Below are positions 6,764 to 48,548 of a stretch of 64,000 bases of DNA, one piece after another (the first letter of the stretch is position 1; each line of letters opens with the position of its first letter). A program made the translations under genes and the position numbers. Where the stretch lies: NCBI RefSeq assembly GCF_002934365.1, contig NZ_PTIY01000005.1:124001-188000 (forward strand). The letters run 5' to 3'. Source of the DNA: Methylobacter tundripaludum (lineage in GTDB: Bacteria > Pseudomonadota > Gammaproteobacteria > Methylococcales > Methylomonadaceae). The notes beneath the pieces are model-generated. The model did not search any database and was not told the DNA's origin. It saw only the letters and a list, made by a program, of their open reading frames with translations.

Positions 6764-6857
6764 TTCGCTAGCCATTCCAATCAGACCGGTTTCGGCGAAA
6801 ATCTTGACTGAAAACGCAGATCGCGGTGGCCGCAAGAAATTTACCGGGTGTTACATA

Positions 6858-7334
6858 GTGAAACCTGACAAACCTACCCAAATTAAAAAGGAATCCGATC
6901 TTTGCGGACACAACAGGAAGGTGTTGTTGGATTACCGGATACCCACACGGCTCGAAGAAATCGAAAAACTTGCTGACGCTGTCAATCAGGCTCTATCCGA
7001 CCCCGACCTGGCTTTCCATGCCAACGTGTGTCTGGAAGAGTTGATTACAAACACCATTGTTCACGGCCTCAAGGGCGCCGCCGACCGGTTCATACAGGTC
7101 CAAATCAGTGTATCGAACGAATGGCTGGAAATTCTTCTGAAGGATGATGCGCCGCAGTTTGACCCTTTCATGCAAGCCCCTAGCCCCAATCTGGATCTGG
7201 ATATTAATGAACGCCCCATCGGCGGTCTGGGGGTGCATATGGTGAAGAAACTGATGGACGATGCCCGTGCCGATTACGACGGCAGCGGCAATGTGATTGT
7301 GTTGCTCAAGAAGCTGCATCAGGCTGCCGGATAA
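6858..7334 (+). CDS. RsbW-like ATP-binding serine kinase / anti-sigma regulatory factor
   Basis: The product is a single HATPase domain of the anti-sigma type. The N-box reads VCLEELITNTIVHG, with the Mg-binding Asn present. The G-box reads IGGLGVHMVKKLMDD. Proteins of this group phosphorylate a STAS antagonist and sequester a partner when the STAS protein is phosphorylated. The GTG at 6858 gives about 158 residues, a usual length. A TTG at 6804 in the same frame is also possible. The gene converges on a STAS-domain gene with only 19 bases between stop codons, making that protein the obvious substrate candidate. No sigma factor gene is nearby, so the final target is unknown. Confidence 0.85.
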   Translation: MKPDKPTQIKKESDLCGHNRKVLLDYRIPTRLEEIEKLADAVNQALSDPDLAFHANVCLEELITNTIVHGLKGAADRFIQVQISVSNEWLEILLKDDAPQFDPFMQAPSPNLDLDINERPIGGLGVHMVKKLMDDARADYDGSGNVIVLLKKLHQAAG

Positions 7335-7353
7335 AGCTTTTCCAGGAAAACCT

Positions 7354-7692
7354 TTATCCGGCGATTACCGCAAGCGCTTCAGCGACAGAGTTTTCCATCT
7401 TGAATAAGGTGTTGAAACCGCACATATCGAATACCGACCGAACGTTTCCCTTGACGTTCGCCAAACAGGCCCGCCCGCCTTTCGCATTCAGCAGTTTGGC
7501 CATCAGCAAAAGTCCGCGCAAGCCGGCGCTGCTGATATAGTCGAGTTGTTCAAAGTCGACCACGATGCAAATATTCCCGCCATCAATCAATTCCCGAATG
7601 CTTTTTTCATAATCCGGCGCAGTAACCGCATCCAGCCTGCCGCTAATCGTGACAACGACGGCGTTATTTTCACTTCTAGTCTGCAAATCCAT
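7354..7692 (-). CDS. STAS-domain anti-sigma factor antagonist
   Basis: This 112-residue single STAS domain resembles SpoIIAA/RsbV. The phosphorylatable serine region DYISSAGLRGLL is intact, so it should be switched between phosphorylated and free states by an RsbW-like kinase and a PP2C phosphatase. It starts 12 bases after the ABC ATPase-HATPase fusion gene and is the last gene of that operon. The operon also encodes a SpoIIE phosphatase, and the kinase candidate lies convergently at 6858-7334. All three roles of a partner-switching cycle are therefore present at one locus. Confidence 0.92.
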   Translation of the reverse strand: MDLQTRSENNAVVVTISGRLDAVTAPDYEKSIRELIDGGNICIVVDFEQLDYISSAGLRGLLLMAKLLNAKGGRACLANVKGNVRSVFDMCGFNTLFKMENSVAEALAVIAG

Positions 7693-7704
7693 GGCTATTA
7701 TTTC

Positions 7705-8805
7705 TCAAAGGGGGGTGGTTTTGATCAGGAATTGTAACCTGTTTTTATCGTTGAGCCACTGGTAGTCGATGCTTTCGGTCAAGTTTTTTATGATCGCCAG
7801 TCCCAGGTCATCGCCGGATAAGTTGCCGCTTTCAAGCGGGTTTGCCGCCTTTCCGCTGCTTTCGCAGACCACCTCCAGACGCGCGCTCTTTTCCGAATAG
7901 GCAACTGTCAGATCAAGAACTGCCTCAGGCAGATACGGGGTATAGATTTGCAGCAATTCCTCAACCAGCAACAGCAAGCTGTCTCTTGTATTCTTCGGCA
8001 GGATCTGTTTCTCGCAAAACGCCTCGATTTCGGCATTCATCGCGTACAAATCATAATCCGGCGAACTGATGCGGCAGGTATAACTGCGAATCCTTTGGAT
8101 GAACGCCCTTGTCTTTTCCTTTTGCGGGTTCCCAAAAATCTGTTCCGGGGGACCTTCTTCGTAAATAATCCCTTCGTCCATATACAAGACCCGGTTCGAT
8201 ACGTCACGGGCAAAGTCCATTTCATGGGTCACAATCGCCATCGTCATCCCCTCTCTGGCAAGACGGCGTATGACCGACAACACTTCGCTGACCATGGTGG
8301 GGTCCAGCGCCGAAGTGGGCTCGTCAAACAGGATGATCTGCGGGTCCATGGCCATGCAGCGGGCAATAGCCACACGCTGTTTCTGACCGCCGGAAAGCTC
8401 GTCCGGGAATTTGCCGGCTTTCTCGGCCAGCCCTACCAGCCTCAGAAGATCCATGGCTTTCAGCTGCGCAGCGTCCTTGCTCATCCCCTTAAGCTTGACC
8501 GGCCCGATGGTCAGGTTTTCCAATACGGACAGGTGAGAAAAAAGATTAAACGATTGAAACACCATGTTCATTTTCTGGCGAACTTTAGCCACATCGGTCT
8601 TTTTATCCAGAACATCTACGCCGTCGATGTAAATCTCCCCTCCGCTTGGGTATTCGAGCAGATTAAGGCAGCGGAGAAAAGTGCTTTTGCCGGTGCCGGA
8701 AGGGCCGATGATGGAGACAACCTCGCCTGCTTTTATTTCGGTGCTGATGTCTTTCAGTACGACCAGGTCATCAAATCTTTTCGACAAACGCTCAACTTTT
8801 ATCAC
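7705..8805 (-). CDS. Amino-acid-type ABC transporter ATPase fused to a C-terminal RsbW-like HATPase domain
   Basis: Residues 1-240 are a canonical polar-amino-acid ABC ATPase of the GlnQ/HisP kind: Walker [10 protein letters not shown], signature [12 protein letters not shown], Walker [14 protein letters not shown]. The usual protein ends near residue 245, but here about 120 residues follow. They match an anti-sigma HATPase: an N-box-like [12 protein letters not shown] and a G-box-like [11 protein letters not shown]. The Asn normally found in the N-box is replaced, apparently by Ile, so this domain may bind a partner without acting as a kinase. The ATG overlaps the permease gene by 4 bases, and the STAS gene follows after 12 bases. 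The fusion suggests that transport activity is coupled to partner switching. Confidence 0.88.
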
Positions 8806-11800
8806 GACTTAGCCTCCATTCGCCGTTTGTGTTTCGGGTCGGTGACCCGCTCAACATAATCCAACGCCTGCGTCAGAATCCACGATATTGCGAAATACAG
8901 AATGGCGATCATGATCAGCGGAAAAAACGCATCGAAAGTGCGACTGCGAATGATGTCGCTGGCCTTTGTCAGATCCTGTACCGCTATATAGCCGACGATG
9001 GAGGTCATCTTAACCAGAGAGATGAACTCCCCCTTATAAACCGGCAAAATACGTTGCACGGTCTGCGGGAGAACGATGAACAGGAATGTCTTGATCTTGG
9101 TAAAGCCCATCGCAATGCCGGCCTCGGCCTGGCCTTTATCAACCCCTTCTATGCCGGTCCTGAAGATCTCGGACACGTAGGCGGCAAAATTCATCCCGAA
9201 CGCAATAATAGCCACCAGCACCGGGTTGATGTCGACCGAGGCGAACACGACATAGAAAATCAGCATCAACAGCACCAGTACCGGCGTGCCGCGCAGAATG
9301 GTGATGTAAACCCTTGCGGGCAGGTTCAGGACAGCCCGCTTCGACATCCGCATGAAGCAGACCAGGGCGCCCAGCAGCGTACCCAACACCGTCGAGAATA
9401 TCGAAATAATCACCGTCGTCTTCAATCCGTCCCATATCAGCAGGTAACGGTTTTCCTGGATGATGTTGCTGTAAAAACTGTCGGCCAGCTTGGTCAGGAA
9501 CGGCAACGAGTCTTTTGCCGAATCCTCCTTCGTATCGAAGGCTGCAATATTTTTCTTAAGCGCGAATGCGTTCGCGCCTAACTCATAATAGGGCTCGGAA
9601 AAATCGACTTTGTTTTTTCTTTCCTCGGTAATCATCAAGGTGCTGTCAATCATATCGATTTTGCCGCTGGAAACCGCTGCAATCAGGTTGCCGAACTCCA
9701 TATCGGAAAATTTGGCCTCTTTGCCCAAATAAGCCGCAAATCTTTCCGCAAGTTCGATATCGAAACCGGTCAGTTTGCTGTCTTTGACCACCGCGAATGG
9801 AAGCCCCTTGTCGCTGACAATGCCGACAATCAGCATGCCGTTCGATTTTGCATTGGCGATCTCCGGCATGCGCGTATCGCCGTTTTCCATCCAGCGCTTC
9901 AGCATATCGCCGTAAACGCCGGTTGACTTGATTTGCCGCAGGAATTCATTGAATTGTTCGCGCAATGGGTCGTTGCCCTTGCGGAAACCGATGCCGATCG
10001 GGTAGGAAAGCAAAGAATCCCCCAACAGCCCCAATTCGCTGTCTTCGCGAAGCATTTCAATCAAGGTTTCCCGCGTGTAGATAGCTGCATCGACCTTACC
10101 GGATTTCACAGCCAGCAGCAGGTCGGACGGGGATTTATACTGGAGAGTGGTCGCGTTGGGGTAATGTTCCATAGCGTACCTGTCGTGAACGGAACCCAGC
10201 AGTACGCCGATGCGTTTGTCCTGGAGATCGGCAATCGATGTCAGTTTTTTCCGCTTGCCTTGTTCGGATCCGGCATCGTTCACCGACAAGATATTTTGCT
10301 TCAACGCGAACATCCGGGTGTCCATCTCATAATACGGATCGGAAAAAATGATCTGTTTTTCCCTCTCTTCGGTCACGTAGATGGAACTGGAAATCATGTC
10401 GGCCTTGCCGGTGGAAACGGCGGCAATCAGGCTGCCGAAATCCATGTTGGCGAACTTAAGCTGTTTCCCGAGATACGCCGCGAATCTTTCCGAAAGCTCT
10501 ATATCGAACCCGACCAGCCGGTTGTCTTTGACTGCTGTAAACGGCAATCCGGCATCGCTGACGCCGACGACCAGAACGCCGTTCTTTTTCGCGTCGCCGA
10601 TCGTCGGCATGCGCGTTTCGCCCAGTTCCATCCAGCGATGGATCATGTCCGCGTAGACGCCGTTTTGCTTGATCTGCGCTAAAAACTGATTGAATTGATC
10701 CCTCAGGGCTTGATTGTCTTTGTCGAAACCGACCCCGACGGAAAATGAAAACAAGGAATCCCCTAATAATCCCAAGCTGTCGTCCTGGCGCATGATTTCG
10801 CGCAAGGGTTCGGCATCGAACAGTGCGGCATCGACCTTGCCGGTCTTGACCGCCAAGGCGACATCGGCGGGGGACTTGTATTGGAGGATAGTCGCATCAG
10901 GATAATTTTTCGTCGCATAGGTATCATGAGCGGAGCCGACCAACACACCGATACGCTTATCTTTCAAGTCTGCAACGGATGCCGGCTTGGAGTCCTGCTT
11001 TTTGGCGGCAGAATCAGAGACCGGCGGCCGCCTAACCAGCGCCGAGATGTCGTTCTCGACATACGGAGCAGAGAACAGTACGAGCTTTTTACGCTCTTCC
11101 GTGACATTAAAGTTGGAAAGCGCAAAATCGATTTTGCCTGACTGCAACGCGGGGATCAGGGCTTCAAAGTTCATGTCGGTGATCTCGATTTTTTTGCCGA
11201 GACGCTGACCGATCAACTGGCTCAGCTCAATGTCCAAACCGGCCAGTTTTCCATGCGCATGGAATGAAAAGGGCTCGATGATCGCGCAAGTCCCCATTTT
11301 CAGCACCTCCTCGCGGCCGGAGTCTTTTATTGGCGGTATCTCCGGCACGGCCGCATATTTTGCATCAATCCATTTCGTTCTGAGCTGCTGCAGGACGCCT
11401 TCCTTGTCCAGTTCGGATAACACTTTATTGATCTCGGCAAGCAATGCGGCATTGTCTTTGCGGATCGCGGCGGCAATTTCAAGTTTGTCCACCGGTTCAT
11501 CGACAATGACCAATTCGGGATTTTTCTCGGCAAGATTAAGCAGCACACTCTTGTCATAAATAAAGGCGTCCGCTTTGCGGGTCTTTACCGCAAGGGCCGC
11601 ATCCGCTGACGCGACAAACACCTGAAAAGTTGCATTCGGAAAGTGCCTGCGGGCCGCCAAATCTCCGGCGGAACCGCCCAGGACGCCGATTCTTTTACCG
11701 TCTATGTCTCCCGGTTTTGAAATCCCGTTACCCTTATCAATGCCGGGCGGAGGCGCTGCCGCGGCGTTTTTTTTGACCAGCATGACCTGTGCGTTGGCGT

Positions 11801-12545
11801 AATAAGGCTCAGTAAAATCGACAACTTTTCTGCGTTCATCTGTTGCGGTCATTCCGGTTACGATCAGATCGACCTTGCCTGATTGCAACGCCGGGATCAG
11901 CGCCATGAATTTCATATTGAAAAATTCGACCGGCCTCTGGAGTTTGGCGCCGATAATTCGCGCAAGCTCACCGTCATGCCCGGTTACCCTGCCCTCTTTG
12001 TCGACAAAACTGAACGGCTCCCGCGTGGCGCTGACGCCTATTTTTAGGGGCGCTCCTTCCGCGGGGAGTGTGATGTTCATTTCTTCATAAGGGCTCAAAT
12101 CCGGCTTGAACCAGCGCTTCTTCATCGATTCCAGGGTGCCGTCGCTCTTCAGCTCAGAGATGATCCGGTTCAATGAGGCCAGAAGCGCGTCATTGCCTTT
12201 CCTGAGCGCAATCGCGGTGTCCTCTTGATCAAGCGGCTCGGACAGCAACCCCAACTCCGTATTCTTCTTCGAGACCTGAAGCGCGGCGGGAAATGCGGTT
12301 ACGATCGCATCCAGTTGCCCGGATTTCATCGCGGCGACGGCGTCCATAATATCGTCGAAACTTTTGACCTGGGCCTCGGGGAGCCTTGAGGCAGTGATTG
12401 ACTCTCCGGTTGAGCCGGTCATCACGCCGATTCTTGCATTTTTTGCATCATCCAGACTGGCGATGACGGTTTCACTTTCTTTGCATCCGGCCAGCATGGC
12501 GAGCGCCGCCAGAATAATCAGCGCCAACAGCGTCGTTTTTTTCAT
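8802..12545 (-). CDS. Giant lipoprotein: tandem SBP_bac_3 lobes fused to an amino-acid ABC permease
   Basis: This 1247-residue fusion has a lipoprotein signal (LAMLAGC, Cys21). After it come repeats of the family 3 substrate-binding fold with a period of about 247 residues. Lobe-2 segments (RIGVxxGS) start near residues 37, 281, 528 and 775. Lobe-1 segments start near 166, 414, 655 and 901. The chain thus begins with an orphan lobe 2, carries three complete lobe 1-lobe 2 units, and ends with an orphan lobe 1. From about residue 1035 a polar-amino-acid permease domain follows, with several membrane segments and the EAA loop near residue 1138. It overlaps the phosphatase gene and the ATPase gene by 4 bases each. 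It probably imports or senses amino acids; the ligand cannot be read from sequence. Confidence 0.92.
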
Positions 12546-14503
12546 CCGCCCTTCCCTGCATGGTTCATGCTCGCATTATCCTTCGTCATTCTTATCGCCA
12601 GCATGGTGATGTCGTCTGATTGTGGCGCACCGCCCGCATGTCGTACCAACGCTTCGCTTATGCAGTGGATCATGCCCGAAAGTTCTTCTTTGGGGGCAAG
12701 TTGCAGGGCCTCCCGCAGTTGCGACTCGCCATACAGATCGTCTTTCCGGCTTCTTGCCTCGGTCACGCCGTCGGTATAAAGAAACAGGGTATCGCCCGGT
12801 TTCAAAGTCACTCGCTCAGTCTCATAGACCGTTTCCATGATGGGGCCAAGCATTAGCCCCGGTTTCAAGCTCAGGTAGCGCACACCCTGCGAGTCAATGA
12901 TCAGCGGTGGATTGTGTCCGGCATTGGCAAAACGCACCTCTCCGGTCGTGACATCAAGGATAGCGCAGAACACCGTGGTGAACATGCAGCTTTCATTGTC
13001 CGATGCGAGGATGTTGTTAACGGAGAAAAGTATTTTATCGGGCTCGCCAAGCCGCTGGCCTTCGGTTTTCAGCAGGGTTTTGGCGACCATCATGTACAGC
13101 GCAGCGGGAACCCCCTTGTCGGAAACGTCGGCGATCAGAAAACACAAGTTCTTATCGTCTATGAAAAAGAAGTCGTAGAAGTCGCCGCCGACTTCTTTAG
13201 CGGGAACCATCGATGCGTAAATATCGAACTCGGGATGATTCGGAAAAGGGGGGAACAGGCGTGGCAACAGGCTGGCCTGGATGTTGGTAGCCATCTTGAG
13301 CTCGCTCTGAATCCGCTCCTTGGCAGCGGTGGTCTCGGTCAGGTTCTTGATGTATTCCTTCAGCGACTCCTGCATGACTTGAAAATCGTGCGTAAGAACG
13401 CCCACCTCGTCGTTCGAATGCACTATGGGCAGATCCACGTCAAAATTCCCCGAAGCGATCTCATCGGTCGCTACAGTCAGCAATTGGAGCGGTTTTATGA
13501 CCGTTTTGGCAATGTAGATGACCGCCAGGGTCAGCAGCAGAATCCCGATAAAACCCATCGCCGCCATGGTCATGCTCAACTTTCCGACATTCTCAAGCAG
13601 TTCTGCCTCGGGGAAAACGACGGCAAGCGTCCATCCTGCCGAAGCGATCGGCGCGTAGTACATCCAGCTTCTGACCCCTACCAGGCTCGTGTAATGGACG
13701 AAGCCCGACTCTCCCCTGATCATTTTCTTGCCGAGTTCACGCAGGTAGGCGTCCTGACGCGCTTCTGCAATGCTGAAGAAGGTCTCGTTCATGATGGAGC
13801 CTTTCATCGGGTGAGCCAATATCATCCCGTTGCGTGAAAGCAGGGCCGCGTAGCCGGTCTTGAGTATCTTGACGGAGGAGATGTATTCCGTCAGGGCGTC
13901 GAGGGAAATGTCCGCACTCACTATTCCCTTGAGTTGTTTATCGCCATTGATTTCCTCGTAAAAAGGAACCGAACAGGTCGACATCAGAATATTGCCTGCG
14001 CCTTCATCGAAGTAAGGTTCGCTCCATTCGAGTTTACCCAGCTCACGCGGAATCTGATACCAATCCCAGTACAAGTAAGGCACAAACTGGTATGACTTTT
14101 CCAGGCGGCTGAGGGCGATCTTTCCGTTTTCCCTGTAATAATACGGCGCATACAGGCGCGATTGGGCGCTGAAGGCGTAGGGCTCAAAGGCGATGGCCGA
14201 GCCGTAAATTTCGGGATTGTTCTCGACGGTGGCTTTGAGCAGGGAGTGAAGCTGCGGCTCCGTATACTTGCTTGTCTCCAGCGCTCCGGCTACCCCTTCC
14301 GTCACTTTGGCAACCGCCGTCAGTTGCGTCTCCACCCGATTGACCAATGACATGGCGAGGTTGCGCGCATTACTTTCCAGCTCATCTTGCAGCATGACGC
14401 GGGACCGGTAATAGTTATAGCCGAGCGTCACCGCAAAGATCACGGAGCTGAACAGCGCGATGACCAGCACAAGTTTGGTGACGATGCTATTTTTCCTGAG
14501 CAT
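12542..14503 (-). CDS. Membrane Cache-HAMP-SpoIIE (PP2C) serine phosphatase
   Basis: A TM segment near the N-terminus precedes a large periplasmic Cache-type sensor region. A second TM segment, a HAMP domain and a cytoplasmic SpoIIE/PP2C phosphatase follow. Metal-binding motifs are intact: KEVGGDFYDF, ADVSDKGVPAALYM, YTDGVTEA and SDDITML. It should dephosphorylate a STAS protein in response to an external ligand. The ATG at 14503 (MLRKNSIVTKL) is preferred because GGAAG lies just upstream. An ATG 14 codons earlier would overlap the previous gene further. It is the second gene of the transporter operon, between two binding-protein genes, so the sensed compound may be a transported nutrient. 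Confidence 0.92.
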   Translation of the reverse strand: MLRKNSIVTKLVLVIALFSSVIFAVTLGYNYYRSRVMLQDELESNARNLAMSLVNRVETQLTAVAKVTEGVAGALETSKYTEPQLHSLLKATVENNPEIYGSAIAFEPYAFSAQSRLYAPYYYRENGKIALSRLEKSYQFVPYLYWDWYQIPRELGKLEWSEPYFDEGAGNILMSTCSVPFYEEINGDKQLKGIVSADISLDALTEYISSVKILKTGYAALLSRNGMILAHPMKGSIMNETFFSIAEARQDAYLRELGKKMIRGESGFVHYTSLVGVRSWMYYAPIASAGWTLAVVFPEAELLENVGKLSMTMAAMGFIGILLLTLAVIYIAKTVIKPLQLLTVATDEIASGNFDVDLPIVHSNDEVGVLTHDFQVMQESLKEYIKNLTETTAAKERIQSELKMATNIQASLLPRLFPPFPNHPEFDIYASMVPAKEVGGDFYDFFFIDDKNLCFLIADVSDKGVPAALYMMVAKTLLKTEGQRLGEPDKILFSVNNILASDNESCMFTTVFCAILDVTTGEVRFANAGHNPPLIIDSQGVRYLSLKPGLMLGPIMETVYETERVTLKPGDTLFLYTDGVTEARSRKDDLYGESQLREALQLAPKEELSGMIHCISEALVRHAGGAPQSDDITMLAIRMTKDNASMNHAGKGG

Positions 14504-15515
14504 CGGACTTCCATGAAAATGTCGAATAGTCGGGATAACTTTCAATCAGGCCGTTTCTTTGCATCGCACGGCCTACGGCCTCGTAATCCTGCTCCGTAAG
14601 GCTGCCGAAGCTTCCCTGAGGATTGACCGGCATCATCAGATCCCGCATCCGGTCCAGCATCCATTTCTGATGCATCCTGTTGGCAGGTAAATGGTCCTCG
14701 CGCATATATTTGATCACGATATCCAGCGCCTCGTCGGGATGCTCGAAGGCGTAGCGCCATCCTTCCAACGAGGCGTTGACAAAGGCTGCCGCCAAGGCAG
14801 GATCGTTACGGAGAGTCTTTTCCATCGCGTAGATCCCGTCCTCTATAAAATTCATGCCCCAGTCTCTCAGGAAAATGACGTTCAATTCATCAGGATCGAT
14901 TCCCGAATCGAGTATCGTATGGTATTCGTTGAACCACATCGCGGATGTCACATCGATGCCGCCGCGCAAAAACAGGTTCACCGTATGGGACTGGCGAACT
15001 TCCCGAACCTTGATGCGGTGGTTGGCGAACAGTGTGCGCGGCGGTATTGATACGTCCCCTTCCCACAATCCCACCTTTTTGCCGTCCATGTCGGCGATGG
15101 TCTTGATGCCGGCGGTTTTTTTTGAAACCAGCATCAACGCCGAGCGCTGGATGATTTGGGCCAGGTTAACGAGTTCCTTGCCGGCAGCGCGATGCAGAAG
15201 GGCCGTGGTAAGCCAGACCACGGCGAAATCCGCCGCGCCCTCTTCCAGAGCTTGAGTGGGCGTATGTCCGGGCCCCGCCTTGAGGATTTTAAGGTCGATA
15301 CCGTGGCGGGCGTAGATTCCCTTGTCGAGAGCCACGTAATATCCGGCGAACTGGGCCTGCGAACCCCACAGTGGCATAAAGGAAGCGTTTTTCAGAGGCA
15401 CTTCGGCGGCGCCAACAGGACGCGCGAGCACACAGGCCATGAACAGTACAGACATCACTGCGATGATCGAATGCTTCTTTTGTTGAAGACGGTTTTTATG
15501 CCACATCTTGCTCAT
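14487..15515 (-). CDS. NMT1/THI5-like periplasmic substrate-binding protein
   Basis: The 342-residue product has an N-terminal signal sequence (hydrophobic IIAVMSVLFMACVLA, cleavage expected near GAAEV). The rest follows the SsuA/THI5/NMT1 fold used for thiamine precursors, nitrate, taurine or sulfonates (WGSQAQFAGYYVALDKGIY). It is the first gene of the operon and overlaps the phosphatase start by 17 bases. No permease or ATPase of the matching nitrate/taurine type is present. It may therefore present its ligand to the Cache-domain phosphatase rather than serve classical transport. Family call is strong; ligand unknown. Confidence 0.88.
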   Translation of the reverse strand: MSKMWHKNRLQQKKHSIIAVMSVLFMACVLARPVGAAEVPLKNASFMPLWGSQAQFAGYYVALDKGIYARHGIDLKILKAGPGHTPTQALEEGAADFAVVWLTTALLHRAAGKELVNLAQIIQRSALMLVSKKTAGIKTIADMDGKKVGLWEGDVSIPPRTLFANHRIKVREVRQSHTVNLFLRGGIDVTSAMWFNEYHTILDSGIDPDELNVIFLRDWGMNFIEDGIYAMEKTLRNDPALAAAFVNASLEGWRYAFEHPDEALDIVIKYMREDHLPANRMHQKWMLDRMRDLMMPVNPQGSFGSLTEQDYEAVGRAMQRNGLIESYPDYSTFSWKSDAQEK

Positions 15516-16533: not shown

Positions 16534-17814
16534 ATGTTAGATCAATCCTTATTAAGTCAATCGAGAGCCGGACTGTCAGAAATTGAGGCAGAATATATCG
16601 CCAGCAGCCTGCTGCGAGTCTGCCCGCCGGTCTCACCCCAACATACCAATCTTGAAGTCACCAAGCTGCTGAACGAGCATCCTGAGCTGATTTCCATTGC
16701 TGTCGTCGAAGACAATAAGCCGATGGGTCTGATTACCCGCAACGTTTTTATGGAGGGCATGGCCAAACCCTATCACCATGATTTATTCGACCGCAAAAGC
16801 TGTATCGCCTTTATGGACAAAGAACCGCTGGTTGTCGATCAAAACATGAGCATTCAAACACTCAGTTTCAAGGTATTAGGCTCTGGCCGTAAAACGCTGA
16901 ACGACGGATTTATCATCACCGATGAAAACGGCGATTATCTGGGGCTCGGCAACGGTGAAGATTTAGTCAGGGTGGTTTCCTTCTTGCAGGCGGAAAAAAA
17001 CCGGCTGGTCACGGAAAGCATCAATTATGCGAGCGTGATTCAAAAATCTTTCCTGCGTTCGTCAAGAGAAAGCATGGCCGCCGTGTTGCAGGATTATTTC
17101 ATGCACTGGGAGCCACGGGACAAAGTAGGCGGCGACTATTATTTCTGCAAAAAATTTGATGACGGCTTTTTTCTCGCGTTGATCGACTGCACCGGGCACG
17201 GCGTTCCCGGCGCCTTTATGACGCTGATTATGGCATCCTTTCTCGATCACATCCTGCTCGAAGACAACCGTCACGACCCTGCCGGCGCACTGGCGATTAT
17301 GAATAAAAAGGTCAAGACGGCGCTGGGCCAGATAAACGATTCGGCCGCTGAAGGCTTTGACGCCGACCGTTTTTCCACCAAGCAGAACGGGCAATCCGAT
17401 GACGGCATGGATACGGCTTTCTGCTGGGTCAATACGCAAAACAGCACATTGACTTATGCGGGCGCCAAAACAGCCTTATTTTACATAGGCGACGCCTCAT
17501 CCGACGTACAGCTACTGGATCCTGATCGTAAAGGTGTAGGTTATGTCGACACGCCGATGGATTATCAATGGACCAATCAACAACTCGCGTTGAGCAAAGG
17601 GATGTGCATCTACCTGACTACCGACGGACTGATCGACCAGATTGGCGGATTAAAGAAAATTGCTTTCGGCAAAAAACGTTTCTCGGGACTGCTTCAGGAG
17701 CATTATCTCAAGCCCATGCCGGAGCAGGAGTCCATCATCATGCAAACCTATTACGACTATCAGGGAAAACAGAAGCGGCGCGACGATGTCTGCCTGATGG
17801 GATTCAGATTTTAA
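16534..17814 (+). CDS. CBS-SpoIIE (PP2C) phosphatase, SiaA-like
   Basis: The C-terminal half is a SpoIIE/PP2C phosphatase with intact metal motifs (DKVGGDYYF, DCTGHGVPGAFMT, TTDGLID, RRDDVCLMGF). The N-terminal 160 residues resemble the CBS-pair module found in EAL/GGDEF proteins, with PMGLITRNVFM and DGFIITDENGDYLGLGNGEDL. No membrane segment or HAMP is present. Pseudomonas SiaA has a membrane sensor, so this version probably responds to a cytoplasmic signal. The next two genes encode SiaB-like and SiaC-like proteins at spacings of 16 and 12 bases, which fixes its role as the phosphatase of a Sia-type switch. Confidence 0.9.
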   Translation: MLDQSLLSQSRAGLSEIEAEYIASSLLRVCPPVSPQHTNLEVTKLLNEHPELISIAVVEDNKPMGLITRNVFMEGMAKPYHHDLFDRKSCIAFMDKEPLVVDQNMSIQTLSFKVLGSGRKTLNDGFIITDENGDYLGLGNGEDLVRVVSFLQAEKNRLVTESINYASVIQKSFLRSSRESMAAVLQDYFMHWEPRDKVGGDYYFCKKFDDGFFLALIDCTGHGVPGAFMTLIMASFLDHILLEDNRHDPAGALAIMNKKVKTALGQINDSAAEGFDADRFSTKQNGQSDDGMDTAFCWVNTQNSTLTYAGAKTALFYIGDASSDVQLLDPDRKGVGYVDTPMDYQWTNQQLALSKGMCIYLTTDGLIDQIGGLKKIAFGKKRFSGLLQEHYLKPMPEQESIIMQTYYDYQGKQKRRDDVCLMGFRF

Positions 17815-17830
17815 TTAACAGGAAATTTTT

Positions 17831-18385
17831 ATGCTTATCGATGTATTTAGCGTGTTCCGTGAAGAGGCCAATACTAACGGGATTGTTTTTTATTACAGCG
17901 GTATTGTTTCGCAGAACGTCATTAAAACCATGAGTGACTCGTTGAAACAAAACCTGCAGCAACAGGACGAAAAAGGCGCCAGATCCCGGAAGGTATTCTC
18001 CACTTTTATCGAAATGATACAAAACGCGATGCATTACTCGCCTAGCGTTCCCGATGCCGGCGATACCAAGGAAGGCTCTATCCTGGTCAGCAAGAAAGAG
18101 GATAAATATTATGTCATCTGCGCCAATTTTATTCAGAAGCAGCATGAAACGCGCATACGCAACAAGCTTGATCCTATTCTGGAAATGAGCGCTGAAGAGA
18201 TCAGACAAGCTTATCGCGCACAATTAAAAAACGATCAGCACAGCGAAGATACGACGAGCAAAGGTGCGGGTCTCGGATTCTTAACACTGGCAAGAGATTC
18301 AGTCGAACCTATTGAATACGCTATCAGAGACGCAGTAGGTTATGAAGACGAACTGTCTTGCTTTTATCTCAAAGCTACTATTTAA
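17831..18385 (+). CDS. siaB: SiaB family protein kinase (RsbW-like ATPase)
   Basis: The 184-residue product has an N-box (FIEMIQNAMHYS) and a G-box (KGAGLGFLTLARDS) of the HATPase fold in the spacing of SiaB. In Pseudomonas, SiaB phosphorylates SiaC on a threonine. AGGA lies just before the ATG, giving a good ribosome-binding site. The gene is between the SiaA-like phosphatase and SiaC, so kinase, phosphatase and substrate are co-transcribed. The family call rests on motif layout and the neighbouring SiaC. Confidence 0.85.
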   Translation: MLIDVFSVFREEANTNGIVFYYSGIVSQNVIKTMSDSLKQNLQQQDEKGARSRKVFSTFIEMIQNAMHYSPSVPDAGDTKEGSILVSKKEDKYYVICANFIQKQHETRIRNKLDPILEMSAEEIRQAYRAQLKNDQHSEDTTSKGAGLGFLTLARDSVEPIEYAIRDAVGYEDELSCFYLKATI

Positions 18386-18397
18386 GGAGTTATCATC

Positions 18398-18784
18398 ATG
18401 ACCGACATATACATTCCAGCCACTTCAGACACGCCTGAAATCGATTTTAAATTTTCCAGCAATACGCTGAGCATGTCCGGCGAAGCGTACCCTGAAAACG
18501 GCGTCGAATTTTTCCGCCCCATCCTTAAACAATTGCAAAGCCATTTAAAATCGCTCAACGGCGCTCCTGTTGAATTTAATTTTCAGCTGACTTATTTCAA
18601 CAGCGTCAGCACTAAAATCTTTTACAGCATGTTTGAATTATTGAACGAGTATGCCAAAAGCCATCCAAACACTGTTTTATTAAACTGGCATCATGATGAA
18701 GAGGACGACACGATTCTGGAGTTGGGCCAGGATATTCAGGAAGACTTTACCTGGATCGATTTTAACGCGATCGTGTTAGCGTAA
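18398..18784 (+). CDS. siaC: SiaC family regulatory phosphoprotein (DUF1987)
   Basis: The 128-residue protein matches the small SiaC/DUF1987 family, including the central segment YFNSVSTKIFYSMFELL. Thr72 in the STK motif is the likely phosphorylated residue. In Pseudomonas, unphosphorylated SiaC binds and activates the diguanylate cyclase SiaD. No siaD lies beside this operon, which ends here. The GGDEF protein at 745-2397 is the only cyclase of that type in the window. AAGGAG precedes the ATG. Confidence 0.88.
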   Translation: MTDIYIPATSDTPEIDFKFSSNTLSMSGEAYPENGVEFFRPILKQLQSHLKSLNGAPVEFNFQLTYFNSVSTKIFYSMFELLNEYAKSHPNTVLLNWHHDEEDDTILELGQDIQEDFTWIDFNAIVLA

Positions 18785-38904: not shown

Positions 38905-42968
<4,064 letters not shown>

Positions 42969-42972
<4 letters not shown>

Positions 42973-44453
42973 CCGCCCATTTATCCTCTTTCAATAAAAC
43001 GCCCATACCGGCTCAATCAACTGCAGGAAGCGCTGTAGCGGAACCCGGATGGCGCACCCTTGGTTTCGCCGGGGTTTTTCGGCGAGGCCAAGGACAGTCC
43101 TCCCGCGCTACACTCCTTAATTGGAGTAAACCACGACAACCGCTGTCTCTGGCGGGTTATGGTTTATGGTTATGCTTATTAATTCTCACCCTACCCGCTT
43201 ATGCGGAGCCTCAAGTCGTCGGTCACATCAGTTTTGTCAAAGGTAGCAACGCAGCGCAACAACCTGGCGCCGCACCCCGTATCCTCGGTAAAGACACGGA
43301 GATTTTTCAGGGAGACAACATCCAAACGACCGAGCGCAGTTTTGTGATTGTCGAGTTTATCGACGGCGCCAAAGTTACCGTGCGGCCAAACAGCAACTTC
43401 AGTATTGATCATTACGACAGCCAATCGGCCAACAAAGCCGCTCAGTTGGTATTGCATCAAGGCGGAGTCAACACCAGCACCGGCGACATAGCCAAAGCTA
43501 ATCCCGAAAGTTTCCAGATAAAAACCCCGACATCCACCGTTAAACCCACAACCGAAAAAGCTGAATATACGGTAAATATTTGCGACAAAGAGTGCGCGGA
43601 AAAAGCGAAGCAAGCAGCCGGGACCCGGACCGAACAAAGCGTAGCCGCTCGTGTAGTCGATATTAAAGGCGAAGTCAGCGCGATAAACCGCGCCGAAAAA
43701 GACGCAAAAGAGCGCCCCCTGTCATTAGGCGCCCCCCTGTATAACTCCGATTCCATTCACAGCGAAAAGGACAGTTACGCGCTGTTGGTATTTCCTGATG
43801 GTGAGAAAATCACGTTACAGGCCGACAGCGACATGGATATTAAACAATATGACTACAAAGTTAGCGGAAAAAAAGACCGGATTTTATTGCGTTTGACAAC
43901 CGGCGGATTGCGTGCCTTGACTGGCAGCATCGGCAAGAACGATCATAGCGCCTTTGCGTTGGATACGCCGGTTGCAACAATCGGCATCAGAGGCACAGGT
44001 ACGGACTCCTATACAGACGGATCATCCCTTAATCATTCTACCTGGCAAGGAACATCGTTTTTGCAGAACGAAGCAGGAGAATTCGATGTGCCGGAAGGAA
44101 GCAGCAGCACCACGACCGGTTCGGATCAAATTCCACGGATATATCCCACTCCGCAAAATGCCCCGCAACCGCCCGCACCCAGGCCGGATACCAATAAATC
44201 CGACCCCAAAAAAGTATTCGAGTCAAAAACTCCCAGCGAAGGCGATACATCGGTTAAGTCCACTCGGGGAAACACCGCCGTCGAGAATAACAACGGCGGA
44301 AAAGCCACGGTAAAAGAAGGTGAAACCGGCTCCACAAATCAGGATGGACAAACAACGACGTTTCAGTCCGATGAAGCCTCCTCCGGCAATACTTCATCCG
44401 GTAATTCGGGAGTATTTGACAACGATCCAGGTAATTCACTCGAAGGTTGTTAA
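42969..44453 (+). CDS. FecR-domain secreted protein with two FecR modules
   Basis: After a long N-terminal extension a signal-anchor (GLWLCLLILTLPAYA) leads into the first FecR domain (VGHISFVKGSNAA, DNIQTTERSFVIVEF). A second follows from about residue 228 (VVDIKGEVSAINR, DSIHSEKDSYALLVF, PVATIGIRGTG). The C-terminal 120 residues are Pro/Ser/Thr/Gly-rich and probably disordered. FecR domains are found in periplasmic sensors of iron-type signalling and in proteins next to TpsB genes. The gene overlaps tpsA by 4 bases and is followed by the transporter after 133 bases. The unusual 55-residue region before the signal-anchor may reflect an internal start; the listed ATG is chosen for the coupled overlap. 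Confidence 0.88.
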
Positions 44454-44586
44454 TGTAGCAGTGTAAAAGCGCGTTGCATTGATAACCTTTCTGCGCGAAT
44501 AATGCTGAAAATGCTTCGGCACCCCAAAAAATCATGAAAAAACAATACATCACCACACACACTAAAAAACATAAAGAGCGTTAGAG

Positions 44587-46191
44587 ATGAATAAGAAAAT
44601 TCATTGGTTTACCGCCCGATCCATCGGATCGACTCTAATCGCCGCCGGTTTATACCTGATCCCGCAAGCGTTTTGTCTGGCCGCAGCACCGCAGGAATTC
44701 AGATTTAACATTGAGCATTTTTCGGTTGAGGGTTTATCGCCGCTGTCCCAAACGTTTATCGACGACTACTTTAAACCGCTGCAAAACAAGCCCTACACGC
44801 TTAAAGAACTTCAAGACGTCAGCAAGGCGCTTGAACAGGTTATCCGCGAACAGGGATACCCGTTTTACCGGGTGGTAGTGCCGCCGCAAACGCTGGCCAG
44901 CGGCGATGTCAAACTGCAAGTCATTTCCTTTACCTTGGGCGAAATTGAAGTGACCGGCAATGAACACTTTACCCGCAACAACGTCATTGCCAGTTTACCG
45001 GTTCTTAGCAACACCGAATCGCCCAATACCCAGGCCTTATCCGAAGCGCTTAAAGTGGCTAATAAGCATCCGTCGAAACAGGTGCAGGTCATCTTCAAAC
45101 CCAGCCAAATGCCGGATAAACTGAACGCCAATATTGCAGTCTCGGAACGCCGCCCTTATCAGGCGTCCTTGATAGCCACTAATTACGGCACGCCCAGTTC
45201 GGGCGCTTACCGGTTGACTGGCGCATTGCAGTACAGCAACTTGTGGGGCCTGGATCATATCGTCAACGGCAGCTACTCGACTTCTCCCGATCATGCGGAT
45301 TCCGTAAAGCAATACGGCTTCAGCTACAGCCTGCCGGTCTACCGGCTCAAAGGCTGGTTGAGCGCCTACTATGCCAGTTCATCGGTTAATGTCGGCACCG
45401 TGGCGACCGATTTAACGGTGACTGGGGCCGGTGAAATGTACGGCATCCATTATCAGCAGTTTTTACCCAAACTGGGCAAATACGAGCATAGCCTGGATTT
45501 GGGCATCGATAACCGCTATTTCATCAACGATGTTCAATTTCAAAGCAGCCAAATCGGCGCCAATGTCCGCAGTGTACCGTTCAGCGTGCTTTATAAAGGC
45601 GAATATCCCTGGCAAAACGCTCACACCGGCTATTATGTGCAGTGGGTGGGCAATACCGACTTCGGCGGCCACAATACTGACGCGCATTACCAAGCGTCCC
45701 GCCTTAACACCAAGCAAAACTGGGACTTGCTGCGTTACGGCGGCAGTTTTTCGGTCAATGTTGAAAATTGGCTGATACAAACCAGCCTTACCGGCCAGCA
45801 AAGCAACAATCCGCTGATCGCCGGGGAACAGCTCGGCATTGGCGGCAGTTTTGATGTCAGAGGCTATGAGCAGCGCGAAACCGGGGCAGACAGCGGTGAA
45901 ATTGTAAAATTCGAAGTCACTACGCCCGCTTGGCCCGCCCTGAGCCTAGTCGAAGGGCAAAAAACCAATTTATTTGTCTTTTATGACTACGGTCATGGCC
46001 GTTTGCAAAGCGCTACACCGGGGCAAGTCAAAGACTGGAACCTGAGCGGCACAGGGATCGGCGCGCGCTTTCAATGGCAGGAGTATTTTCTAGGCAATAT
46101 TGCCTTTGCCAATGCGCTGGACACTGCCGAAGCGGGGACTACCAAAGCGGGAGACAACCGCATCCATGCCAATATTGTGTTCAAATACTGA
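44587..46191 (+). CDS. TpsB outer-membrane transporter (ShlB/FhaC/HecB family)
   Basis: The 534-residue protein has a signal peptide, then POTRA modules (VEGLSPLSQTFIDDYF, LGEIEVTGNEHFTRNNV). A C-terminal 16-strand beta-barrel domain follows, with the ShlB-type motif GGSFDVRGYEQRETGADSG and a terminal aromatic residue (IVFKY). It exports TpsA-type exoproteins through the outer membrane. The upstream TpsA gene at 38905 is the evident substrate, with the FecR gene between. Confidence 0.93.
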   Translation: MNKKIHWFTARSIGSTLIAAGLYLIPQAFCLAAAPQEFRFNIEHFSVEGLSPLSQTFIDDYFKPLQNKPYTLKELQDVSKALEQVIREQGYPFYRVVVPPQTLASGDVKLQVISFTLGEIEVTGNEHFTRNNVIASLPVLSNTESPNTQALSEALKVANKHPSKQVQVIFKPSQMPDKLNANIAVSERRPYQASLIATNYGTPSSGAYRLTGALQYSNLWGLDHIVNGSYSTSPDHADSVKQYGFSYSLPVYRLKGWLSAYYASSSVNVGTVATDLTVTGAGEMYGIHYQQFLPKLGKYEHSLDLGIDNRYFINDVQFQSSQIGANVRSVPFSVLYKGEYPWQNAHTGYYVQWVGNTDFGGHNTDAHYQASRLNTKQNWDLLRYGGSFSVNVENWLIQTSLTGQQSNNPLIAGEQLGIGGSFDVRGYEQRETGADSGEIVKFEVTTPAWPALSLVEGQKTNLFVFYDYGHGRLQSATPGQVKDWNLSGTGIGARFQWQEYFLGNIAFANALDTAEAGTTKAGDNRIHANIVFKY

Positions 46192-46280
46192 AGATTGAGT
46201 CATACTCTACGCGGAACTTTATCGCGCTGTTCGACCTTTAGCGCGTTGCACGTAAAAACACTTCCGACAAGTTGACAGAC

Positions 46281-48548
46281 ATGCATCAGGCCGCATCCCA
46301 TATCATTGTCATAGAGCTGGCTCCTCCAGATGAGGCCGTACCGCGTATTAAACTGCTTACCTCCTCCGCTGCCGCATTTTTAGGTTATACCGAGCAAGAA
46401 CTGATCGGCAGCCCTGTCGACCTGATCTACGCCGCCGAACACGACAAGGTGCTCTGGCGGGCGGCCCTTGCCGATGTAATCGCTGGTAAAGAGCGCGAGC
46501 CGGGAGCGGCAAGCTTTGCCTGCGACATACTCACCAAGACCAAGCGCAAAATCCGGGCATTCATATCCCTTGGTCTGTTATCCCCTCGGACAGCCTATAA
46601 AACCGACATTGTTTTGCTGATTCAGGACAAGCCCACCGACTCCGCTGAAGACTTGAGCACTAAATCCGCGCTGGCCGAAAGCGAAGAACGTTTTCGGCAA
46701 ATGGCCGAAATGACCGGCGAATGGTTATGGGAGCAGGATCCTGACGGCTACTATAGCTACAGCAGCACCGCGGTTACTCAAATACTCGGCTATCGTCAGG
46801 AGGAAGTACTCGGCAAACACTATACCGAGTTTTTAGCCCCGCAGGATAAAGCAGACCAACAGCGATATGTGACCAGCCGCCGGCCTTTTTATGCATTATT
46901 GTCCCACTACCGGCATAAAGACGGCCGCCAGATACTGACCGAATCGACCGGATTGCCGATTATCGACGGCGAAGGGAAACTGCTTAAATGGCGGGGCGTT
47001 GACCGTGACATTACCGCCAGAATGCATTTCCAGGATGCGCTTATCGAAAGCGAAAAACGCATCCGGCTCATTATCGACAGCTCGTTGAGCGCGATCGTGA
47101 TTATGGATGCTTACGGCATTGTTATCGATTGGAATCGCCCGGCCGAGAAAATATTCGGTTGGTCCAAAGAAGAAGCTATCGGCCAACGCCTTGACCAGTT
47201 AATTATCCCCCCCGCACAACGTGATGCGCATCGTCGGGCGTTGGGGCATTTCCTTCGTACCGGTTTTGGCCCATTCATAAACCGGTTAATCGAGCAAACC
47301 GCCATTCGCCGCGACGGCACTGAATTTCCGGTTGAACTAAACTTTTCCCCGTTAAAACAGGGCAACACTTATATATTCAGCGGTTTTATCCATGACATAA
47401 CCGAACGTAAACGCCTGGAGCATCGATTTCAACAAGCGGTGGAATCGGCGCCCAATGCGATTGTCATGGTCAACAAGACCGGAACGATCGAGATGGTCAA
47501 TTCGCAAACAGAGACGTCTTTCGGTTATTCACGCACTGAATTAGTGGGGCAACCGGTTGAAATATTAGTGCCGGAGCGCTTTCGCGAAGCTCATACCGGT
47601 TTTCGCCAAGCCTACCTCGCCGCCCCGGTATCCCGGCCTATGGGCGTGGGCCAGGAACTCTACGGGCTACGCAAAGACGGCACCGAATTTCCGGTTGAAA
47701 TAGGCCTCAGCCTGATCGACAGCAAAGAAGAAACATTGGTGCTGAGCACCATCGTAGACATTACCACGCGAAAAGCGACGGAAGCGGCAATCCGCCAAGC
47801 GCAAATCAATCTGGCCATTGCCCAAAGCGAAATCAAGATTGCCCAACGCATCCAGGCATCCCTGTCGCCGTCGGCGCCGATCAAATCCAATCATTTTGAA
47901 GTCACCGGCTATTGCTTGCCCGCCGACCAAGTCGGCGGCGATTATTTCGATTATTTTTACCGCGATGAAAACCATCTGGACATGATTATTGCCGATGTTT
48001 CCGGCCATTCGATCGGTCCCGCGCTGTTTATGGTCGAAACCCGCAGCGCCATTCGAACCCAGGCCGGCGGCCTGGGAACGCCCGCAAAAACCCTAAACAT
48101 ACTGAACAATTTTCTGTTTGAGGATTTGGACAAGTCCGACTACTTTATCACGCTGTTTTATTTGCAATACGACCTCTCCAACCATCAATTGAGTTTCGCC
48201 AATGCGGGCCACCCGCCCCCTTTACTGCTCAGTTCTTTTCAATCCGAATGCAGGCAACTCGATGCCGATGGGTTAATATTGGGCGTATACAAAAATGTGG
48301 TCTTTGAAGAAAAAATCACCACGCTGTCTGAAGGCGACTTAATTCTGCTGTATACCGACGGCTTAACCGAAGCGGAAAACGCTGATGGCGAGTTTTTCGG
48401 CCTAAAACGCGTCAACGACATTCTCGCCGAACATGGGCAGGAAACGCCGCAGACCATCATTGACGCGCTGCTGGAACAGCTAAAGCAATTTTGCGGCAGC
48501 GAATCCTTTAACGATGATATTACGTTGATGGTTTTTAAGCGGAATTAA
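46281..48548 (+). CDS. Multi-PAS SpoIIE (PP2C) phosphatase
   Basis: About 755 residues carry four PAS-like modules, as judged by PAS/PAC signatures (ILGYRQEEVLGKHYTEF, IFGWSKEEAIGQRLDQL, SFGYSRTELVGQPVEIL, and a weaker one at the N-terminus). A C-terminal SpoIIE/PP2C phosphatase follows with DQVGGDYFDYF, ADVSGHSIGPALFM, YTDGLTEAEN and NDDITLMVF. No membrane segment is seen, so it senses a cytoplasmic or bound cofactor signal. The ATG at 46281 is preferred to a TTG nine bases upstream. No kinase or STAS gene is adjacent; it could act on either partner-switching system in the window. Confidence 0.9.
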   Translation: MHQAASHIIVIELAPPDEAVPRIKLLTSSAAAFLGYTEQELIGSPVDLIYAAEHDKVLWRAALADVIAGKEREPGAASFACDILTKTKRKIRAFISLGLLSPRTAYKTDIVLLIQDKPTDSAEDLSTKSALAESEERFRQMAEMTGEWLWEQDPDGYYSYSSTAVTQILGYRQEEVLGKHYTEFLAPQDKADQQRYVTSRRPFYALLSHYRHKDGRQILTESTGLPIIDGEGKLLKWRGVDRDITARMHFQDALIESEKRIRLIIDSSLSAIVIMDAYGIVIDWNRPAEKIFGWSKEEAIGQRLDQLIIPPAQRDAHRRALGHFLRTGFGPFINRLIEQTAIRRDGTEFPVELNFSPLKQGNTYIFSGFIHDITERKRLEHRFQQAVESAPNAIVMVNKTGTIEMVNSQTETSFGYSRTELVGQPVEILVPERFREAHTGFRQAYLAAPVSRPMGVGQELYGLRKDGTEFPVEIGLSLIDSKEETLVLSTIVDITTRKATEAAIRQAQINLAIAQSEIKIAQRIQASLSPSAPIKSNHFEVTGYCLPADQVGGDYFDYFYRDENHLDMIIADVSGHSIGPALFMVETRSAIRTQAGGLGTPAKTLNILNNFLFEDLDKSDYFITLFYLQYDLSNHQLSFANAGHPPPLLLSSFQSECRQLDADGLILGVYKNVVFEEKITTLSEGDLILLYTDGLTEAENADGEFFGLKRVNDILAEHGQETPQTIIDALLEQLKQFCGSESFNDDITLMVFKRN

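Follow-up and report, generated by a model that had tools for sequence, protein, structure and literature searches.

A STAS partner switch encoded with an amino-acid-type ABC importer whose ATPase carries a conserved pseudokinase-like domain

What might a SpoIIE phosphatase, a STAS protein and two RsbW-like domains be doing around the genes of an amino-acid-type ABC importer? The question is raised by a 64,000-nucleotide stretch of the Methylobacter tundripaludum genome (contig NZ_PTIY01000005.1, positions 124,001 to 188,000; hereafter the window), in which a first-pass annotation had described a co-directional hybrid operon of transport and switch genes. The open reading frames and their Pfam domains bear this out, with five genes on the minus strand and a kinase gene on the opposite strand (Table 1). 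The kinase gene converges on the STAS gene, as had been noted, and lies just beyond the 7354-15515 interval then assigned to the hybrid. Within the operon, the NMT1-like and SpoIIE genes overlap by 17-59 bp, set by whether the phosphatase starts at the TTG at 14545 or the ATG at 14503, while the SpoIIE/permease and permease/ATPase junctions are 4 bp overlaps (ATGA and GTGA, respectively) and 12 bp separate the ATPase and STAS genes. Because it lies on the opposite strand, the free kinase is a separate transcription unit, and its stop codon is 19 bp from that of the STAS gene. The strong hairpin at these convergent ends overlaps both genes and has no T run, and a promoter and terminator scan gave no clear excess over shuffled sequences.

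Table 1. Features of the operon and the convergent kinase gene, in window coordinates.
Feature	Position	Strand	Evidence
NMT1/THI5-like periplasmic binding protein	14487..15515	-	Pfam PF09084, E=2e-40; signal peptide
dCache-HAMP-SpoIIE (PPM) phosphatase	12542..14545	-	Pfam; metal motifs intact
SBP_bac_3 array and PAAT-type BPD_transp_1 permease	8802..12545	-	Pfam; lipobox first
GlnQ-like ABC ATPase with fused C-terminal pseudo-RsbW domain	7705..8805	-	Pfam/NCBIfam
Fused RsbW/SpoIIAB-like domain (about aa 233-363; I287 at N-box Asn position)	7717..8109	-	
STAS antagonist	7354..7692	-	Pfam PF01740, E=1e-20; TIGR00377 above cut-off
Free RsbW-like kinase	6804..7334	+	Pfam PF13581, E=8e-20
Hairpin spanning the convergent STAS and kinase 3' ends	7326..7362	.	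-21 to -22 kcal/mol on either strand

The transporter genes have the composition of a PAAT importer, namely a GlnQ/HisP-like NBD, a HEQRo-type permease and SBP_bac_3 domains (NCBIfam; TIGR01726 above cut-off). In the permease polypeptide, a lipobox is followed by four SBP_bac_3 units, each with its C-half ahead of its N-half, and then by the permease domain (half-domain map, CNCNCNCN-T). Judged from the sequence, these units are apparently circularly permuted, and the permutation appears to be common to the whole transporter family. The C-half-first order is also seen in stand-alone 260-aa lipoproteins of Chlorobiota (e.g., L036:7583-8377), where the start of the Pfam profile matches residues 172-261 of 264, and an ordinary SBP-permease in locus L056 has the N-C order. 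GlnPQ-type importers have tandem SBDs fused to the permease (PMC8025302). The likeness lies in the fusion of several SBP_bac_3 domains to a PAAT permease; the present transporter differs in having four SBP equivalents, with the C-N order of a permutation, and an extra, putatively regulatory domain on its ATPase. The NMT1-like protein has no cognate permease adjoining it, and in most full operons its gene directly precedes that of the Cache-SpoIIE protein; we propose that it is the ligand-sensing partner of the Cache phosphatase.

The switch components retain the residues on which a phosphorylation cycle would depend. The metal-site motifs of the SpoIIE domain (VGGDFYDF, DVSDKG, AGHNP, TDGV and DDIT) are intact and the STAS protein has a predicted phospho-acceptor, Ser55, within YISSAGLR; both sets of motifs are kept in nearly all relatives. 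The free kinase has an intact N-box (E78, E79 and N83) and GGLG motif, as anti-sigma-type kinases do. The window also encodes a multi-PAS SpoIIE phosphatase (46272-48548, plus strand), one of just four SpoIIE matches genome-wide. Head-to-head with the operon lies another partner-switch set of a different kind (16534-18784, plus strand), CBS-SpoIIE/DUF6272/SiaC in a SiaA-SiaB-SiaC-like arrangement, and no such set was seen beside the relatives L013-L019.

A closer look at the ATPase shows the second RsbW-like domain at its C terminus. The Pfam HATPase_c_2 match of this fused domain is weak (E = 1e-3, under the gathering score) and a PDB sequence search with an eight-sequence profile gave matches at chance level only, while profile-profile comparison with the free operon kinases gave a 97.4% probability (E = 1.1e-11). 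In the AF2 model, pLDDT is >90 over most blocks, and on the HATPase side Foldseek ranks chains of SpoIIAB, RsbW and UsfX highest (TMt 0.65-0.76). Such homology and fold could point to a working kinase that phosphorylates the STAS protein and closes the cycle on the ATPase itself. We reject this reading as highly improbable, since the Mg-binding Asn of the N-box is absent from all 82 fused domains (Ile in 41, Leu in 34, and Met, Val, Arg, Tyr or Ala in the rest), the lid segment is gone, and GGLG is mostly replaced by D-D/E-LG; the G1 Asp is mostly Glu. The same Asn is present in 26 of 26 free kinases that could be read by pattern, and by eye in a 27th (L086_15, TEEAVVN). The fused domain therefore combines a SpoIIAB-like fold with loss of the GHKL Mg/ATP-site features (N-box Asn, G1 Asp, GGLG and lid), and from general knowledge of GHKL proteins it presumably should not hydrolyse ATP. 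It looks like a conserved pseudokinase, with its best-conserved stretch, of 20 residues, covering the first helix of the fold, and may plausibly serve the STAS protein as a docking site.

Two earlier descriptions have to be narrowed as a result. Calling the ATPase-borne domain RsbW-like is right for its fold and profile homology and wrong for the catalytic features of RsbW. The “complete” partner-switching cycle finds its STAS, phosphatase and free-kinase motifs in place, while the domain on the ATPase is not a working kinase, so that a complete cycle depends on the free kinase. That kinase lies beside the operon in only five of the eight fused-ATPase genomes of the host's family; in the other three the orthologue is missing, and kinases elsewhere in those genomes, only 36-40% identical, could act as substitutes.

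The arrangement is not confined to this genome. Within the host's family, to which Methylobacter marinus A45 and Methylovulum miyakonense also belong, 8/151 genomes encode the fused ATPase domain, and the other seven loci keep the order NMT1, Cache-SpoIIE, SBP-permease, ATPase-fusion, STAS, although two (L013 and L015) are interrupted by inserts or frame breaks; the convergent kinase is kept in 4/7. A wider scan, taking one genome per species, recovered 74 loci, some sharing a genome, from Chlorobiota, Geobacterales, other Deltaproteobacteria, Gemmatimonadota, Verrucomicrobia, Bacteroidota, Acidobacteria, KSB1, Nitrotoga, Nitrosomonas and others. The ATPase fusion is known from 82 loci in many phyla, and it follows a permease of the same SBP type in every locus with upstream sequence. 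The single extra match of a phylum-wide search (n=400) was weak, and the protein is of the free-kinase type, with no ATPase fused to it. Conserved co-occurrence of the five architectures, which the first-pass annotation had proposed looking for, is found: some 20 other loci in Methylobacter, Methylovulum, Nitrotoga, Nitrosomonas, Geobacterales and Chlorobiota have the same gene order. Its recurrence beyond the genus and the phylum shows that the operon is not a chance assembly, and the idea of an order unique to this genome is rejected.

The position of the switch genes varies among lineages. The kinase gene directly follows the STAS gene on the same strand in Geobacterales, Chlorobiota and Burkholderiaceae. 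One Bacteroidales locus (L094) has the order SpoIIE, kinase, STAS, permease, ATPase-fusion, and another (L091:222-10351) places response-regulator-SpoIIE, kinase and STAS ahead of a second ABC system, of the ABC_sub_bind type and with a second STAS protein, after which come the permease and ATPase-fusion. In several STAS-less lineages, hybrid or ordinary histidine kinases are encoded near or beside the transporter. In Methylophilales (L038:4574-7795, the locus that was scanned, and L042:1452-4724), an SBP-PAS hybrid histidine kinase after the fused-ATPase importer replaces STAS, and the genome of L042 has an NMT1-SpoIIE-STAS set at a separate locus (L103).

Many fused-ATPase loci have no STAS gene nearby. 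A rival reading gives the fused domain a generic role in regulation or dimerisation, comparable to that of the C-terminal domains in MetN or ModC, with the switch genes merely co-expressed. The histidine kinases near the domain in other lineages are in keeping with this reading, as is its retention in Chlorobiota that lack any close STAS: in several of the 16 such genomes there was no STAS match at E<=1e-6, so there the domain persists without a STAS partner. Three kinds of evidence make us consider a generic domain unlikely. First, the ATPase and STAS genes keep company when they are not neighbours. Within the host's family, a STAS orthologue occurs in the same 8/151 genomes as the fused ATPase, a co-occurrence that is not independent because the genes are linked; the one addition is a decayed relic, interrupted by three stops, next to which 28 residues of a kinase remain. 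A STAS protein as close as these orthologues was found in 0/368 other gammaproteobacterial genomes, whose best matches were ~1e-20 to 1e-23. Where the transporter lacks a STAS gene nearby, some genomes encode separate switch cassettes, with the orders STAS-kinase-NMT1-Cache-SpoIIE (L099), STAS-kinase-Cache-SpoIIE (L100), NMT1-Cache-SpoIIE-STAS (L103) and STAS-kinase (L101). Across 141 genomes of Geobacterales, the order of Trichlorobacter thiogenes, and with a STAS cut-off of E<=1e-28, STAS is present in 14/16 genomes with the fused ATPase and in 12/125 without it. Counting unlinked genes only, the comparison is 10/12 to 12/125 (Fisher p ~8e-8, with no phylogenetic correction). A close STAS homologue also shares one 573 aa ORF with an ATP-grasp domain (L102:3774-5495), which may reflect a genuine fusion or an error of assembly.

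Second, the fused domain and the STAS protein diverge together. Their distances correlate with r=0.66 after NBD distance is removed and r=0.58 after NBD and permease distances are both removed (permutation p=0.0005, n=31 loci), although mirror-tree correlations of this kind can be inflated by shared operon history; the fused domain-SpoIIE correlation is just 0.12 (n=16 loci). Third, the domain is eroded where its putative partner is missing. With the positions that STAS-bearing loci conserve outside Chlorobiota as reference, the 16 Chlorobiota loci that lack a close STAS show 18% violations, compared to 8% for Chlorobiota that have STAS and 6% for genomes in which STAS lies elsewhere, both being held-out STAS-bearing groups. 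The NBD differs far less, at 3.4% versus 2.1-2.6%.

The association also leaves room for information to flow the other way, with the transporter as sensor. Its pseudokinase domain would hold or free STAS in step with the transport cycle, and the STAS protein would act on something more distant, for instance a regulator bound by a kinase or a protein with an HD domain. The 12 Geobacterales genomes with a STAS module and no fused ATPase would fit this reading, as would the 11 further STAS matches of the host genome. The unlinked STAS-kinase cassettes L099 and L101 adjoin genes for HD_5-domain proteins, and together with STAS in genomes lacking the ATPase these neighbours mean that STAS may have other targets. 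The conserved operon, however, contains no sigma factor or other effector, and the transporter alone is consistently linked to the switch; we consider the reverse direction rather improbable.

We lean slightly towards a post-translational switch on the importer itself, with STAS docking on the pseudokinase domain of the ATPase. This is supported indirectly, by the operon linkage and by the co-occurrence, joint divergence and erosion described above; against it count the loci with no STAS nearby, the Geobacterales that have STAS and no fused ATPase, and the three family genomes lacking a kinase orthologue. Ligand capture by the NMT1-like protein, the Cache domain or both would set the activity of the SpoIIE phosphatase, which, given its intact catalytic motifs, would dephosphorylate the STAS protein at Ser55. 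An RsbW-like kinase, encoded beside the operon or elsewhere and likewise intact in its catalytic motifs, would rephosphorylate it. Unphosphorylated STAS may then dock on the kinase-dead domain and alter coupling within the ATPase dimer or between ATPase and permease, and our guess, by analogy with MlaB on MlaF, inclines modestly to import going up over going down. The earlier suggestion that the state of the STAS protein may gate the transporter is supported as a possibility. We also folded the ATPase and STAS as one tethered AF2 chain, joined by in-frame read-through of the TGA stop and the 12 bp gap as a modelling device only. The pTM was 0.63 with no confident interface, and a true STAS-kinase pair (L044), tethered likewise as a positive control, gave no confident interface either (pTM 0.64).

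In its components the system resembles SpoIIAA/SpoIIAB and RsbV/RsbW with SpoIIE/RsbU, which share the three folds, the phospho-Ser STAS motif and the phosphatase motifs, and by Foldseek the fused domain and STAS match the SpoIIAB/SpoIIAA and RsbW/RsbV structures. The difference is in the output, which is a sigma factor in SpoIIA and Rsb, whereas this operon has no sigma factor and an extra copy of the kinase fold is dead and fused to an ABC ATPase. Partner switching with a non-sigma output is found in SiaC. Excerpts of a review of STAS-only proteins describe the same for SypA and BtrV, and those excerpts name no ABC output (PMC8256260). All three share SpoIIE/kinase/STAS-like logic with the present system, whose probable output differs in being a membrane transporter. 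The nearest precedent for control of an ABC transporter by STAS is MlaB on the ABC ATPase MlaF, where phosphorylation of MlaB Thr52 is proposed and unproven in cells (PMC7367683). Both cases pair a STAS protein with an ABC ATPase, the pairing here being predicted from the genes. MlaB binds the NBD directly and is not known to have a kinase or phosphatase, whereas here the ATPase, of the amino-acid importer class, carries a pseudo-RsbW domain. A literature search, with most subscription journals outside its scope, found no description of an ABC ATPase with an RsbW-like domain or of such a hybrid. From these comparisons, we regard the system as a variant of partner switching, probably with an ABC importer as its output, and not as a separate category.

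Whether ABC importers of this widespread family are gated by a STAS protein that is reversibly phosphorylated on Ser and docks on an anti-sigma-factor-derived pseudokinase, so that the transporter takes the place of the sigma factor, is to us an even call. If so, an anti-sigma-factor enzyme domain became an adaptor through which a transporter is regulated, with conservation reaching from Bacteroidota to Gammaproteobacteria, and nutrient import may be under a protein switch usually used on transcription factors. The authors of the MlaFB work left open phospho-control of STAS regulators of ABC transporters (PMC7367683). With STAS, kinase, phosphatase and a docking-type ATPase domain encoded together, this question becomes directly testable.

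Elsewhere in the window (38905-46191), a large repeat protein that resembles haemagglutinins and has a tail rich in N and S is followed by FecR-like and TpsB/ShlB-like outer-membrane genes, in what looks from its gene content like a two-partner secretion locus.
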